A DNA stretch of 38,760 nt. It comes from an uncultured Pelosinus sp. (lineage in GTDB: Bacteria; Bacillota; Negativicutes; DSM-13327). Location: contig CAMKSY010000003.1 of assembly GCA_946415545.1 (NCBI GenBank), positions 1 to 38,760 of the forward strand, given 5' to 3'. Below the pieces are notes generated by a model. That model saw only the letters and a program-made list of their open reading frames with translations. It made no database searches and was not told the origin of the DNA. Of this stretch, positions 17,583-36,853 are shown piece after piece. Position 1 is the stretch's first letter, and every line of letters starts with the position of its first letter. The position numbers and the translations under genes were made by a program.

Positions 17583-17652
17583 AATTAAGTTGTATCATTT
17601 TCAGCTATGCTACTACGATGCGACTGCAATGCTTGGAGGTGTCTTTGCGCGC

Positions 17653-18666
<1,014 letters not shown>

Positions 18667-30470: not shown

Positions 30471-32690
30471 TTATTCTTTTTTATAGAGCAGCTCATACTT
30501 CCCCTGACTGGCAGGGGATGAGAGACTCTTTGCACCTGGCTGCTGGGGAGAGAAGGAAAGAAGTCGTGTGGAGTTCATTACTACTGTCAGGGTACTTGCA
30601 TTATGCAAAACAGCTGCGATAAATGGTGAAATCAATTTCGCGGAGCCAAGCCCTAGTCCAATGATATTTGCTCCAATAGCAAATAGAAAGTTCTGCCTGA
30701 TAATTTGTAAGGATTTTTTACCAAGGCGAATAATTTCCACAATTTTTTCTGGATTATCTTCTCGCAGAACAATACCAGCAGTTTCAATTGCTGCATCCGC
30801 CCCTCCGATCCCCATAGCAATGCCAACATTGGCAAGAGCCAATGAAGGAGAGTCATTAATTCCATCTCCGACCATCCCCACCACATATCCCTCTTCCTGC
30901 AAGGATTTTATAATATTAAATTTATCCTGTGGGAGCATGTTGAACCAGAACTTCTCCAGTCTTAAAAGATTAGCGATCTCCTTTACCCCTGTATCTGCAT
31001 CTCCAGAGACAATTCCAATGTCTGTAATCCCCTCTTCTCTAATGCTTCGAATTGCATTCTCTGCATTTGGGCGGAGAGAGTCTACGATCACAATGACTCC
31101 AATAAGAGTCATGCTGCGAGCTACATATACAAGCGTTGCACTTTCAGTCTTGTTCTGCATTGCAAAAGGAATACGTGGAGGAATTTTTATTCCCATCTGA
31201 CTTAAGTATGAAAAATTTCCAACATGAACAACTGCACCATCGATTGTGGCCCTTACACCACGACCAATTGCCATTTCACTGTCAGGAATACAGGGTAAAT
31301 CAATCCCTTGCTCTTTTGCAGCGTCTTTAATTGCATTCGCCAATGGATGATTTGCATTCGCCTCTGCTCCGGCGGCTAAGGCTAAAATAGAATTGGCATC
31401 ATATTCTTTATGGGTCGGAACGATGTTAGCAACGGCAGGTTTTCCTTCTGTCAGCGTACCGGTCTTATCAAATAGTAAAAAATTTATTTTTCCTGCTTCC
31501 TCTAAATAACGACCGCCTTTTACTAAAATTCCCCGGCTGGCAGCGTTCCCAATCGCAGCGCTAAGAGCAGTAGGCGTAGCAAGTCCTGCGGCACAAGGAC
31601 AAGCAACAATCAAAATCGTCATCGTTCTTCTGATATCCCCAGTTAACAAAAACACAAGCAATGCCAAAAGAAATGAACTTGGAATGAGACGAGCAGAATA
31701 AGTATCTGCCATTTTTTGTATGGGAGCTTTAGAATGGGCTGCTTCTTCGACAAGATGTATCACACGAGCAACAGATGTTTGATCTCCTACTTGTTCTGCC
31801 TTAACATACAAAGTTCCCTGTTCAATTGTAGAACCAGCCAATACCTTATCACCAACTTGCTTAAGTACAGGTACAGGCTCTCCCGTTAATGCTGCCTGAT
31901 TGATTACCGCTTCACCGTTCACAACGATTCCGTCTACCGGAATCTTGCTGCCAAGTTTAATGGATACAATATCGTCTTGTTTTAATTGAGAAATGGGTAT
32001 GATGACCTCCTGCCCATTTACAACAATCCATGCGTCTTTTTGATTGCCTTCCAGCATACTCCGAATGGTACGACGCGACCGGTCCAGTGTAAGCGTTTCG
32101 ATCAAGGTGCTGAGGTTTACCAGCCAAACAACCACTAGGCCGGTAGCTCCTTCTCTTAACAATATCGACAAAATAATGGCCGTTCCGATCAAAATCTCAT
32201 TATTTAAAACTCGGCGCAGAACAAGATTCTCGGTACCACTGCGTAATATGGGAAAAGCAGTAATAAATGTCACTAAACTGGTTGGACTCAATACATCAAC
32301 AGAAAGTGGTCCTGGACGAAACAGATAACGAAACAGATGATAAAGCAATGTTAAACCGCCAATAGCGACTAAAGCAATCTGAGTAGGAATGGACACATCT
32401 TCTACTTCAAAAGGCTTTGCCTTCTGCCTTCTTAACATCTCGGGCTTAGAATCCTGTTTACTGAACTGTTGCAAAAAGGACCACAAAGCGCTTTCAGACG
32501 TCATAGCCTGACTATATTGGATCAAGATCTTACCCGATTTAGGATTTGCGCTGCATTCTTGAATCCCTTTTTGCTTCCTTAAAAGTACTTCAAGCTGTGA
32601 AGCAAACTTAGGATTTTGTTTTATTCTGGAATGATATATGCGAATACGCCCAGGCATTTTGTGAACAATTTGTAGGTATGGTGCAGCCAA
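30471..32690 (-). CDS. Heavy-metal P1B-type ATPase with N-terminal HMA_2-like domain
   Basis: A 739-residue pump with intact catalytic parts: actuator TGEP (269-272), CPC in TM6 (VACPCAAG, 364-366), phosphorylated Asp408 in FDKTGT, HP in ANHPLANAI, and hinge GDGIND from residue 608. The N-terminal ~75 residues (MPGRIRIYHSRIKQNPKFASQLEVLLRKQKGIQECSANPKSGKILIQY) resemble an HMA_2 domain without CxxC, so it is not a typical copper chaperone domain. The C-terminal helix pair has LHNASTLTVVMNSTRLL. The Asn/Ser-Thr pattern is closer to CtpC/CtpV-like pumps than CopA, so the metal is uncertain. TTG start 32690 with GGGGG 9 nt upstream. A terminator separates it from the Fur-box gene. Confidence 0.92.
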   Translation of the reverse strand: MAAPYLQIVHKMPGRIRIYHSRIKQNPKFASQLEVLLRKQKGIQECSANPKSGKILIQYSQAMTSESALWSFLQQFSKQDSKPEMLRRQKAKPFEVEDVSIPTQIALVAIGGLTLLYHLFRYLFRPGPLSVDVLSPTSLVTFITAFPILRSGTENLVLRRVLNNEILIGTAIILSILLREGATGLVVVWLVNLSTLIETLTLDRSRRTIRSMLEGNQKDAWIVVNGQEVIIPISQLKQDDIVSIKLGSKIPVDGIVVNGEAVINQAALTGEPVPVLKQVGDKVLAGSTIEQGTLYVKAEQVGDQTSVARVIHLVEEAAHSKAPIQKMADTYSARLIPSSFLLALLVFLLTGDIRRTMTILIVACPCAAGLATPTALSAAIGNAASRGILVKGGRYLEEAGKINFLLFDKTGTLTEGKPAVANIVPTHKEYDANSILALAAGAEANANHPLANAIKDAAKEQGIDLPCIPDSEMAIGRGVRATIDGAVVHVGNFSYLSQMGIKIPPRIPFAMQNKTESATLVYVARSMTLIGVIVIVDSLRPNAENAIRSIREEGITDIGIVSGDADTGVKEIANLLRLEKFWFNMLPQDKFNIIKSLQEEGYVVGMVGDGINDSPSLALANVGIAMGIGGADAAIETAGIVLREDNPEKIVEIIRLGKKSLQIIRQNFLFAIGANIIGLGLGSAKLISPFIAAVLHNASTLTVVMNSTRLLSFSPQQPGAKSLSSPASQGKYELLYKKE

Positions 32691-32875: not shown

Positions 32876-33508
32876 TTATACTGCTGCTTCTGTAATCGAA
32901 AAATAGGACTTTTGCTTAAGGGTTAACAGCTGCTCACGGACCTGCTTTATGATTAAGCGCTCCCAATCATGGAGGAAATTCAAAATACATCCCTTAATTC
33001 GTTCAGAAAGGTCAAGCAATGCTGATTTCAATTGCTGCTTACTGGAACAACCTAAGGTCTCCATGGCGAATGTTGCTACATCAACCTGAAACGGAAATAT
33101 ACCTTTTGTGACCGATCTCAACGAATAACTGCAAGCTTTGTTGCCCAAGAATTCAACACAGCGGGTAGCTCGTAATGTAGAGCGATGTTCATGAACTGCA
33201 GGCAGTAATGACCTGAGAGAAAGAGCGGGAAAAGGTCCTTGCAATGCTAAATTTTTTTCGTATGAAAAACCATGGTCTTTCACCTTTTCATTAAGCCTAT
33301 TAAGGAGACAATCTAACATTTTTCCTTTTTGCAGTTCTAACAAAACCCCAGGCCATACAAGGGAATTGTGGCAAAACAAAGAATCCGCCAACTTATGAAT
33401 TTCTAAAGAAGAAATCTTTGAACGGATCTGGCAAAATTCCCCTCGTATATCGTTTACGCATTCAAGATGCAATGCTTCAATTGGTTTTATATATATTGAC
33501 ATAGGCAT
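32876..33508 (-). CDS. Uncharacterised Cys-rich protein with a Fur box
   Basis: A 210-residue protein with no signal or clear membrane span. It contains about eight Cys (LECVNDIRGEFCQIRSK, LFCHNSLVW, MLDCLL, RCVEFLGNKACSYS, LGCSSK, KGCILNF) and several His. The C-terminal ~60 residues are helical. I do not recognise a family. ATG 33508 is chosen because AGGAGG lies 6 nt upstream; the longer frame would run through the Fur box. It has its own promoter, a strong Fur box just ahead of the Shine-Dalgarno, and a terminator. The P-type ATPase genes around it suggest a part in metal handling. Confidence 0.75.
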   Translation of the reverse strand: MPMSIYIKPIEALHLECVNDIRGEFCQIRSKISSLEIHKLADSLFCHNSLVWPGVLLELQKGKMLDCLLNRLNEKVKDHGFSYEKNLALQGPFPALSLRSLLPAVHEHRSTLRATRCVEFLGNKACSYSLRSVTKGIFPFQVDVATFAMETLGCSSKQQLKSALLDLSERIKGCILNFLHDWERLIIKQVREQLLTLKQKSYFSITEAAV

Positions 33509-33582: not shown

Positions 33583-33688
33583 TATAATTATATAAATAAT
33601 CTTAATGGAAAAACGTATATAACATGGATAAAGATGGGAACAATACTAAGGATTATACATTGCATATTTTTTGAAAGGTAGGGTTATA

Positions 33689-34321
33689 ATGTCCGATATA
33701 GAAACAGGGTCATATAACGAATATGAAATAAAGTCTAAAGTTAAGCAAAGCAGAGGACAACTTCTTCGTGCGAGAGCCATGGAAACGTGCTGTGAGGATA
33801 CGACCTTAGGACTAGAACAAGTCTTTGAGGCGAAATTATCCGCCATACGTATATATGAGCAGAAATTAAACACAGTTACTGATCCCTATGCACGTAAGGC
33901 ATTGATGCAAATGATACGCAAGGAGCGTAAAGAACTGCTGGAATTGGCAGAACTAACTGACTTAGTAGAAACAGGACCTGGAATGAATGGATTAGCTAGA
34001 AGAAAACGCTGCTTTAATCACGAAATAAAAATGCGTACGGGACACAATGTGACCTTTTGGATTGGTGCTGTTGTTGTTGCAGCTGCATTGATGCCGAGTG
34101 TTAGAGAAAAGCTTCGTCCCTTGGCTGTAAAAGCTGTGCAAGGCGTAATCGGATTAACAGAGCAGGCACAGGGAGTTTTCAGCGGCGTACGGGAGGACAT
34201 CGAGGATCTGGTAAGCGAAGCCCAATTTGAACGTTTTAAGGACTCGCTTGATGAGGTCAATGAAGACCTAGAAGAAGCTAGTGAAGAAACCTTCGATACC
34301 ACCAAAGCTGATCCTAGCTAA
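33689..34321 (+). CDS. Membrane-anchored helical protein (DUF5132-like), ATPase cluster
   Basis: A 210-residue protein in three parts: a helical N-terminal half (EDTTLGLEQVFEAKLSAIRIYEQKLNTVTDPYARKALMQMIRKERKELLELAELTDLVE) that could form a helical hairpin, one membrane span (VTFWIGAVVVAAALMP), and an acidic helical tail (GVREDIEDLVSEAQFERFKDSLDEVNEDLEEASEE). The span plus SVREKLRPLAVKAVQGVIGL resembles the DUF5132 group sometimes found beside HMA_2/P-type ATPase genes; this is from memory. ATG 33689 follows AAAGGTAGGG. It leads a three-gene plus-strand series with the 78-residue protein and the pseudo-ATPase. Confidence 0.7.
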   Translation: MSDIETGSYNEYEIKSKVKQSRGQLLRARAMETCCEDTTLGLEQVFEAKLSAIRIYEQKLNTVTDPYARKALMQMIRKERKELLELAELTDLVETGPGMNGLARRKRCFNHEIKMRTGHNVTFWIGAVVVAAALMPSVREKLRPLAVKAVQGVIGLTEQAQGVFSGVREDIEDLVSEAQFERFKDSLDEVNEDLEEASEETFDTTKADPS

Positions 34322-34342: not shown

Positions 34343-34579
34343 GTGGCTATTACGATTGAAATATTACGCCAGAAAATTACAAATGCAAATCGCGAACTGC
34401 ATGAAGCAATTGATATGAGTATTGAGCTAAGACGGCACTCGCCAGAAATAAAGGGAGAGGTCATTACCATTTGGGAAGAATTCCTGGGACAGTTTTTTGG
34501 ATACATTAAGAAAAGAAGTAAAGAGTCAAAAGACAATCTACTTGCTGGTATCTCCTGGGCACGTTTAAAGCTTTTTTAG
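34343..34579 (+). CDS. 78-residue helical protein, unknown
   Basis: GTG start with AGGAGG 5 nt upstream, 21 bp after the preceding stop, so it is almost certainly cotranscribed. Two amphipathic helices are likely (TIEILRQKITNANRELHEAIDMSIELRR and EIKGEVITIWEEFLGQFFGYIKKRSKESKDNL). No membrane span, Cys or known motif. Its position between the anchored helical protein and the pseudo-ATPase suggests an adaptor for that complex. Confidence 0.6.
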   Translation: MAITIEILRQKITNANRELHEAIDMSIELRRHSPEIKGEVITIWEEFLGQFFGYIKKRSKESKDNLLAGISWARLKLF

Positions 34580-34602
34580 CAGCAGCATATCCATTTACAT
34601 TG

Positions 34603-34627
34603 ACAGCAGGGAATCATTCCTTGCTGT
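34603..34627 (+). terminator. Hairpin between the 78-residue gene and the pseudo-ATPase gene
   Basis: ACAGCAGGGAA (34603-34613) pairs with TTCCTTGCTGT (34617-34627) with one G-U pair and a 3-nt loop; TGATTCTTTC follows. It may lower, rather than stop, read-through into the next gene. Confidence 0.4.
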
Positions 34628-34733
34628 TGATTCTTTCATTACGATTCGGCAGTCACTTTAGAAATCCATGTTCCATGATTTATTGCCTTTTTCCAGAAGA
34701 GTTATTTCAATCTAAAAAGGAGGACGCTTTTCA

Positions 34734-36251
34734 TTGGCGGCAGCAGCTAGTCTTACGACAAGTCAATACAATTTATTGCCAGGACGGTTACGAATATCCA
34801 TCACATCACTTCTGCAAAACCCTGATTTTGCTCGCTATATAGAAACAAGATTGGTAAAAGAAACATACATTTATTCCGTAACAGCAAATCCATTAACAGG
34901 CCGAGCGCTTATTTATTTTCATCCAACGTATATTCGCCTAGCCGAAATTCAGTCATTGATTTTTGCATTAGAGCAACGATATTCGATAGAAAAGCTCTCT
35001 ATACCCAAGAATGTAAAAATCGGCTCTAAACATTTTCCAGAGCTGATCAAATCACCAGGGACCTACGCCTTAGCAACAGGCATCATTCTAGCAGGACTCA
35101 TCACCAAACGCTTCTTTACGGGCAAATCTCCCCTGTCCTCTTCCCCGCAAATTTTCAGTTTTGCTGCTCTTGCTACTTTAATTGCTGGCTATCCCGTCTT
35201 ACGAAACCGTTTTGAAACAGTGGCTAAAAAGCACAATATGAACTATGAATTGCTTTTGTTTTTGCCAACCTTACTACTGCTGACCATACGAGAAAGTATT
35301 ACCGGATTGTCCGTGCTCTGGTTTGTCCAGTTAACCTATTGGCTTGGCACATCAGCACAAGAAAATTCCCATAAAAGCATATCGAATCTTCTTATGAGAA
35401 AGCAGTTGCTGGCACCAAATAGGCCATATGAAGAAAATGAGAACCCCAGTCCGACAGATACGGAATTGGAAAATAACATCTCTACTCACGAAAGTAAAGA
35501 AAAAAAATCTTCATCCTCCTTATTGACCGAAAAAATCATATGGTATTCCCTGGGGATTTCAGGAGTTAATTTTATTCTAACAAGAAACTTTATGCGAAGC
35601 CTCGCCATATTACTTGCCGGATGCCCTGCTGCAATTTCCCTATCCAAAGACGCAGCAATGCATTCTGCAATCAGGCAAGCAGCCGAAAAAGGAATTTATA
35701 TAAAGCAGAGTGAAGTTCTAGAACGCCTAGGGGACGTTGATACCGTGTTATTTGAACATGAATGCTATACAGGAAAAGATCGGCTGTATTCTTTAGGTAT
35801 CAAGGATATTCATGTGATCACCAGTAATCGTGCTGCTAACCAGCATGCTATGCCTCCTGACGATATCGTAAAAAAAATGAACGATTTGCAAGCCCTAGGA
35901 AAGAAGATTGCTGTAATTGGAGACGGGAGGAATGACTCTCTCGCCTTTGCAGCCAGTAATGCTGCCATCGTTATGGGCAGAAAAGGAACCGCACAGGCCA
36001 TTGAAGCTGCCGATATCGTAATTGCCAATGATGATCCACAAAAAGTAGCTGAGATCATCTATCTCAGCAGATATATGAATAAAGTCATTCGTCAGAATGT
36101 ATCCTTCGCTACATTCTTTAATATAACCGGTGTGGCACTAGCTGCTGCCTCGCTTATCACTCCCATATCCGCGGGATTACTGCTGAATATCAGTACATTG
36201 GCAATCATTATGAACTCAAAATGCTCATTGTCTGATAAGGAGCGATTTTGA
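34734..36251 (+). CDS. Catalytically dead P-type ATPase homologue (pseudo-pump)
   Basis: A 505-residue intact ORF. Residues 12-80 match the HMA_2-like N-terminus of the neighbouring pump (LLPGRLRISITSLLQNPDFARYIETRL...). Membrane helices follow. After residue 200, where the active pump has a ~145-residue actuator domain with TGEP, there is only a ~65-residue polar linker. TM6 has GCPAA for CPC. At the phosphorylation site FDKTGT is replaced by FEHEC (E341), and the ~145-residue nucleotide-binding domain is missing. The hinge reads GDGRNDSLAFAASNAAIVMG (396 on), and the last helix pair keeps LLLNISTLAIIMNS. It cannot be an autonomous ATPase; a regulatory or structural partner is likely. TTG 34734 with AAGGAGG 10 nt upstream. 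Confidence 0.85.
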   Translation: MAAAASLTTSQYNLLPGRLRISITSLLQNPDFARYIETRLVKETYIYSVTANPLTGRALIYFHPTYIRLAEIQSLIFALEQRYSIEKLSIPKNVKIGSKHFPELIKSPGTYALATGIILAGLITKRFFTGKSPLSSSPQIFSFAALATLIAGYPVLRNRFETVAKKHNMNYELLLFLPTLLLLTIRESITGLSVLWFVQLTYWLGTSAQENSHKSISNLLMRKQLLAPNRPYEENENPSPTDTELENNISTHESKEKKSSSSLLTEKIIWYSLGISGVNFILTRNFMRSLAILLAGCPAAISLSKDAAMHSAIRQAAEKGIYIKQSEVLERLGDVDTVLFEHECYTGKDRLYSLGIKDIHVITSNRAANQHAMPPDDIVKKMNDLQALGKKIAVIGDGRNDSLAFAASNAAIVMGRKGTAQAIEAADIVIANDDPQKVAEIIYLSRYMNKVIRQNVSFATFFNITGVALAAASLITPISAGLLLNISTLAIIMNSKCSLSDKERF

Positions 36252-36384: not shown

Positions 36385-36768
36385 TCAGCGAATAGCACGA
36401 CGCCTTTTCGCCTCATCTACAATACTTTTAAATTCAGCTTCAGCCGCTTCTTTCAATGTCAATATTTTGGCAGTCGTAGCAACAGCCATACGGTGCCCTT
36501 TTTCTCGAGCTGCGGCACCACGACAATGTGAAATACCTCGAACTTGACGTGCTTCTTCTACAAACGCAGAAGCTCTGGCACTTACTTTTGCTGCTGCATT
36601 TTTCACTTCATCTTTAGCAATTAAAGCCCCTTTCGTCACCTTTACTGCACCAGACCGTATATTGCGCCGATCCGAGAGTAAAGCGAGAGCAATACCACCA
36701 GCTAACAATAGCAAAAGAGAATTTTTGCTGAATAAACTGGTACCAAATCTCAAAAAATTCATATACAT
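36385..36768 (-). CDS. Ala/Lys-rich membrane-anchored protein (DUF6110-like)
   Basis: About 127 residues: one N-terminal span (SLLLLLAGGIALALL) followed by a long basic Ala-rich helix (SGAVKVTKGALIAKDEVKNAAAKVSARASAFVEEARQV ... AATTAKILTLKEAAEAEFKSIVDEAKRRRAIR). The span plus VKVTKGALIAKDEV recalls small DUF6110 proteins that I associate with HMA_2/P-type ATPase loci; not verified. ATG 36768 has AGGAGG 4 nt upstream; ATG 36762 gives a 10-nt spacing and is equally possible. Convergent with the pseudo-ATPase gene. Confidence 0.65.
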   Translation of the reverse strand: MYMNFLRFGTSLFSKNSLLLLLAGGIALALLSDRRNIRSGAVKVTKGALIAKDEVKNAAAKVSARASAFVEEARQVRGISHCRGAAAREKGHRMAVATTAKILTLKEAAEAEFKSIVDEAKRRRAIR

Positions 36769-36853
36769 TACACCTCCTCGCACTTATTCTAATTTTCCCG
36801 TAGTATGAAAGCTTTATGTATTTTAAATTAAGGATTCATTCCATAATACATTA

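Follow-up and report, generated by a model that had tools for sequence, protein, structure and literature searches.

The P-type ATPase KdpFABC contains further membrane subunits besides KdpB, its active subunit, and these partners are not dead P-type ATPases. The FUPA24 family (TC 3.A.3.24), which includes CtpH and CtpI of Mycobacterium, comprises P-type ATPases of approximately twice the normal length, and these proteins have a large N-terminal segment and a C-terminal half that is a P2-like pump with canonical motifs (PMC3573892). Double-length ATPases of the CtpH/CtpI type are among the uncharacterised P-type ATPases (PMC10654040). In mycobacteria, P-ATPases are reportedly scaffolded in membrane platforms by PacL proteins, which are described from Actinobacteria only (PMC9374683, PMC13043812). 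In the CtpC-PacL1 platform of M. tuberculosis, the partner is an active P-ATPase, and the passages covered describe no dead pump subunit. In the literature covered, mostly papers available without a subscription, searches for P-type ATPases that are inactive, fused, in tandem or pseudo gave nothing relevant, and no dead subunit of this kind is described.

Here, we analysed a 38,760-nucleotide stretch of DNA from an uncultured anaerobic bacterium, Pelosinus sp. (the window), in which a P-type ATPase-like protein, the pseudo-pump, is encoded in an operon behind two small genes, u216 and u78 (Table 1). By size and layout, FUPA24 is the nearest named family, a resemblance in architecture that concerns the double-length tandem relatives of the pseudo-pump. 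Unlike the FUPA24 proteins, the pseudo-pump is an N-terminal half alone, with no catalytic P2 half.

Table 1. Features of the pseudo-pump locus in the window
Feature	Position	Strand	Remarks
Live P1B ATPase (P1B739)	30471..32690	-	739 aa, divergent from the pseudo-pump operon
o209	32876..33505	-	between live pump and operon; unknown family
u216	33671..34321	+	first operon gene; likely start ATG 33689
u78	34343..34579	+	second operon gene; small conserved protein, 78 aa
Hairpin, 15 pairs	34599..34631	+	between u78 and pseudo-pump
Shine-Dalgarno AAGGAGG	34717-34723	+	before TTG start of pseudo-pump
Pseudo-P-type ATPase	34734..36251	+	505 codons, TTG start, 505 aa
HMA_2-like domain of pseudo-pump	34773-34970	+	residues 14-79
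GCPAA in M4 of pseudo-pump	from 35619	+	position of CPC in live pump
FEHEC of pseudo-pump	35751-35765	+	at FDKTGT position
GDGRND of pseudo-pump	35919-35936	+	P-domain remnant
d132	36385..36783	-	small membrane protein, convergent to pseudo-pump

Architecture of the pseudo-pump

The preliminary description of this DNA had noted a reading frame in which DKTGT, CPC, the A domain and the N domain are missing, whereas an HMA_2-like N-terminus, the membrane helices and part of the P domain remain. The reading frame is real, and our alignment agrees with the description in each of these points. The HMA_2 match (E 1.9e-6, 28.3 bits) lies slightly below the 30-bit cut-off, TIGR01525 matches the C-terminal part of the P domain, and the P1B helix arrangement is present over MA-M6. 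In the live pump P1B739, which shares the HMA_2-like N-terminus, all motifs are intact (TGEP, CPC, DKTGT, HP, GDGIND and HN in M6). Aligned with it, the pseudo-pump has GCPAA for ACPCA and FEHEC for FDKTGT, retains GDGRND and is missing the M6 histidine, which belongs to HNxST in the live pump. M2 and M3 are only 75 residues apart, compared with 149 in the live pump, showing that the A domain is gone, and a spacing of 56 instead of 201 residues between the DKTGT and GDGxND positions shows the same for the N domain. The HMA_2-like domain has no CxxC. DKTGT, an A domain with TGE and a CPC-type M4 motif, by which active P1B pumps are recognised, are all absent, and DKTGT is missing in five of five Pelosinus orthologues. 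The pseudo-pump hence has the fold and helix order of the P1B heavy-metal ATPases (the CopA, ZntA and CtpC group) and differs from them in having no A domain, N domain, phosphorylation aspartate, CPC or M6 histidine; lacking these, it cannot pump alone. An AlphaFold2 model of the protein by itself was of middling confidence (pLDDT 66.5, pTM 0.55), with the HMA_2 domain and the P-domain remnant well predicted and several helices less well, and its top Foldseek matches were P1B pumps. Elsewhere in the same genome (G000, contig 21, 2088-5173), small HMA_2 ORFs cluster round another P1B ATPase of 731 aa.

Tandem ATPases and the origin of the solo gene

Four other Pelosinus genomes contain an orthologue of the pseudo-pump with the same layout in the same operon (76-84% identity), and in G306, a genome of another family, the same operon carries an even shorter solo gene of 438 aa, from which the P domain too is almost entirely missing. 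With these truncated orthologues in the other Pelosinus and in G306, neither a full motif layout among orthologues nor a lack of conservation in relatives was found, and a local deletion in this strain is ruled out.

Rather than being a dead copy of the neighbouring P1B pump, with which it had first been compared, the pseudo-pump is a member of the N-terminal halves of tandem P1B-like and P2A ATPases of Bacillota (1,530-1,790 aa). In other Negativicutes, a tandem of 1,590-1,790 aa (1,349 aa in G048) occupies the same operon position, and tandems of 1,530-1,640 aa are also present in other Bacillota. They consist of a P1B-like N-half and a P2A (Ca/Mn-type) C-half with intact motifs, to which the closest solved structure is the Listeria calcium ATPase lmo0841. 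None of the 32 N-halves tabulated has the complete motif set (TGE, CPC, DKTGT and GDGxND): CPC is present in G400 only, TGE only in G054 and G709, besides a shifted CGE in G039, and the M6 histidine is lost in all except G400. The A domain has been lost repeatedly, often with parts of the N and P domains, and the HMA_2-like domain and the membrane helices are kept. On a tree of the N-halves, which was computed without the columns of the A, P and N domains, at least seven losses of the A domain and at least five changes between the fused and the unfused state are required. The tree places the pseudo-pump within the N-halves (branches with 98/99 and 99/96), as does the presence of u216-u78 upstream, and the solo genes of Pelosinus and G306 form one clade (96/88) among tandems, next to those of G316 and Lucifera. 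The N-half was impaired already within the tandems, and its ancestral partner was a P2A pump.

In the solo genomes, no orthologue of the P2A half was found, only ordinary pumps of the 920-aa class; these are also encoded by tandem-bearing relatives, which rules out that the P2A half was relocated in the genome. In Pelosinus and G306, the P2A half has been lost, and the dead half remains together with u216 and u78. The tandems of Pelosinus G006 and G007 (L031 and L032) lie on another branch of the tree, so they are not the direct ancestor of the solo gene, and a descent straight from them is ruled out; their position suggests acquisition or replacement. No relatives were found on viral contigs, and plasmid searches returned ordinary P-type pumps, including Rhodococcus P1B pumps, one of which adjoins a DUF1490 gene.

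The two halves also occur as separate genes. In Sporomusa malonica and G312, the dead half is encoded by a gene of its own (482 and 543 aa), the end of which overlaps the start of the gene for a P2A pump of 1,039-1,040 aa by 16 nt, and the Shine-Dalgarno sequence of this pump sits inside the gene of the dead half. In G610 and G709, which belong to other groups, the halves are likewise separate and lie near each other. Sporomusa malonica also encodes a second remnant of 508 aa (L067:5538-7064), which retains N-domain sequence and is missing its first helices as well as the A domain. Separate Sporomusa P2A pumps (L067:8885-12004 and L068:8557-11679) start with an HMA_2-like domain of their own, which is unusual for P2A pumps.

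The pseudo-pump is under purifying selection in Pelosinus

Among the Pelosinus genomes, dN/dS of the pseudo-pump is 0.24 (bootstrap 0.18-0.30) and that of the live pump 0.11. Within the pseudo-pump, values are lowest in the helices (0.13-0.19), followed by the C-terminal part of the P domain (0.22), the HMA_2 domain (0.30) and the linker at the site of the former A domain (0.45). The Shine-Dalgarno sequence and the start region are conserved in all five genomes. In a neutral simulation of the ORF, the probability of finding no stop codon was 0.004 after 0.09 substitutions per site, and none of 500 runs was stop-free at 0.15 or more. The gene is therefore under purifying selection, strongest in the membrane helices, and the earlier view that it is maintained and not decaying is borne out by its dN/dS and by a frame that stayed open where stops would be expected neutrally; on the same grounds, decay without function is disfavoured. 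The dead halves of tandems and of Sporomusa have dN/dS values of 0.12-0.25, a constraint somewhat weaker than that on the P2A halves.

One might still regard the pseudo-pump as a slowly decaying relic that lost its use with the P2A half, the remaining selection being no more than a guard against a membrane protein that misfolds and becomes toxic. Its catalytic domains are gone, its dN/dS is roughly double the value for the live pump, and Sporomusa malonica has a further odd remnant, that of 508 aa. We regard this explanation as unlikely, however, given that the frame is open in five Pelosinus genomes and in G306, where neutral drift should have produced several stops, that the constraint is concentrated in the helices instead of being even, and that the start site with its Shine-Dalgarno sequence and the operon partners have been retained.

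Operon partners and proposed role

In five Pelosinus genomes, the gene order is u216, u78 and pseudo-pump, followed by the convergent d132, with o209 and the live P1B pump on the other side of the operon. The u216 protein combines a helical N-terminal part with a single transmembrane helix, and its tail is DUF5132-like; u78 is 95-96% identical among the five genomes and has no match in Pfam or NCBIfam. No database match was obtained for o209, which lies next to the orthologue of P1B739 in Pelosinus as well as in G306 and G316. Both arms of the hairpin between u78 and the pseudo-pump are nearly invariant in the five genomes, and the sequence 3' of it varies. It is terminator-like with a weak T tract, had no match in an Rfam search, and is perhaps an attenuator or an RNA-stability element.

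Of 380 Negativicutes genomes surveyed, 26 have the pseudo-half family; all but one of these 26 also encode full-length u216, which is absent from the remaining 354 (Fisher p 3e-38, a value that overstates independence since the genomes are related and lineages are counted repeatedly). A d132 orthologue (L070:16993-17532) matches DUF1490 (PF07371, the PacL family) with 32.5 bits, above the Pfam cut-off of 28.4; PF07371 matches 7 of 25 relatives of u216 and d132 at E up to 1, and a direct comparison with a single Rhodococcus DUF1490 protein was weak. The d132 protein of the window itself has no Pfam match, including to PF07371. The P1B pump beside the Rhodococcus DUF1490 gene and the live Pelosinus pump have the HN motif in M6 in common. 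In the PacL/DUF1490 platforms of M. tuberculosis, such as CtpC-PacL1, the genes beside those of P-ATPases likewise encode small proteins that have a single helix and a related motif.

We consider it reasonably likely that the pseudo-pump belongs to a P-type ATPase efflux platform as a non-catalytic membrane subunit and probably now serves the divergently encoded live P1B pump. A docking or stabilising role is the most likely one, since what the protein retains is its HMA_2-like domain and its membrane bundle, and since the ancestral and the Sporomusa partners are P-type pumps. The dead half would bring pumps together with small membrane proteins of the PacL-like kind by docking both into the platform, and it might stabilise or gate its partner pump. 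In the tandems, this partner would be the fused P2A half. For Pelosinus, we infer from adjacency that it is most likely the live P1B pump: an orthologue of P1B739 adjoins six of six solo pseudo-pumps without a P2A half, and that of G306 is 64-65% identical to the live pump. The same adjacency occurs alongside a full tandem in G007 and G316, so that adjacency alone is no proof of partnership. The regulatory or heteromeric subunit suggested in the preliminary description is plausible, based on the overlap with an intact P2A gene in Sporomusa and the near-strict co-inheritance of u216, and gene position would suggest its pairing with the P1B pump.

An intact dead half has persisted in at least six species, which suggests a use for dead pumps as subunits without catalytic activity. 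Tentatively, one might go further and speculate that a dead P-type ATPase, separated from the other half of its tandem, has become an obligate but non-catalytic partner in trans of a different, live P1B pump in a PacL-like platform, so that the pump would be a heteromer of one live and one dead P-type ATPase. If so, P-type ATPases would join the enzyme families with dead paralogues as subunits, and PacL-like pump platforms would extend beyond Actinobacteria. If the extra half of CtpH and CtpI is also a dead P1B pump, the natural splits in Sporomusa and the solo genes in Pelosinus would allow a direct test of its function.

As a metal sensor or chaperone bound to the membrane, the pseudo-pump could also function without any pump, its only partners being u216 and u78. 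The retention of u216, u78 and the pseudo-half as a block when the P2A pump was lost, and the loss of almost the whole P domain in G306, would fit such a role, but we find it rather improbable, as M4 and M6 no longer carry the substrate ligands, the HMA_2-like domain has no CxxC, and other lineages have the half either in fusion with a P-type pump or with such a pump encoded nearby. Very unlikely is a dominant-negative or brake role, in which a subunit homologous to the P1B fold forms unproductive dimers with the adjacent live P1B pump that are removed or changed by metal, given that there is no evidence of P1B dimers here and that the dead half of the tandems is fused to a P2A and not a P1B pump. 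Apart from this locus, the window also encodes a collagen-like repeat protein of 358 aa (17590-18666), which is rich in Gly-X-Thr.
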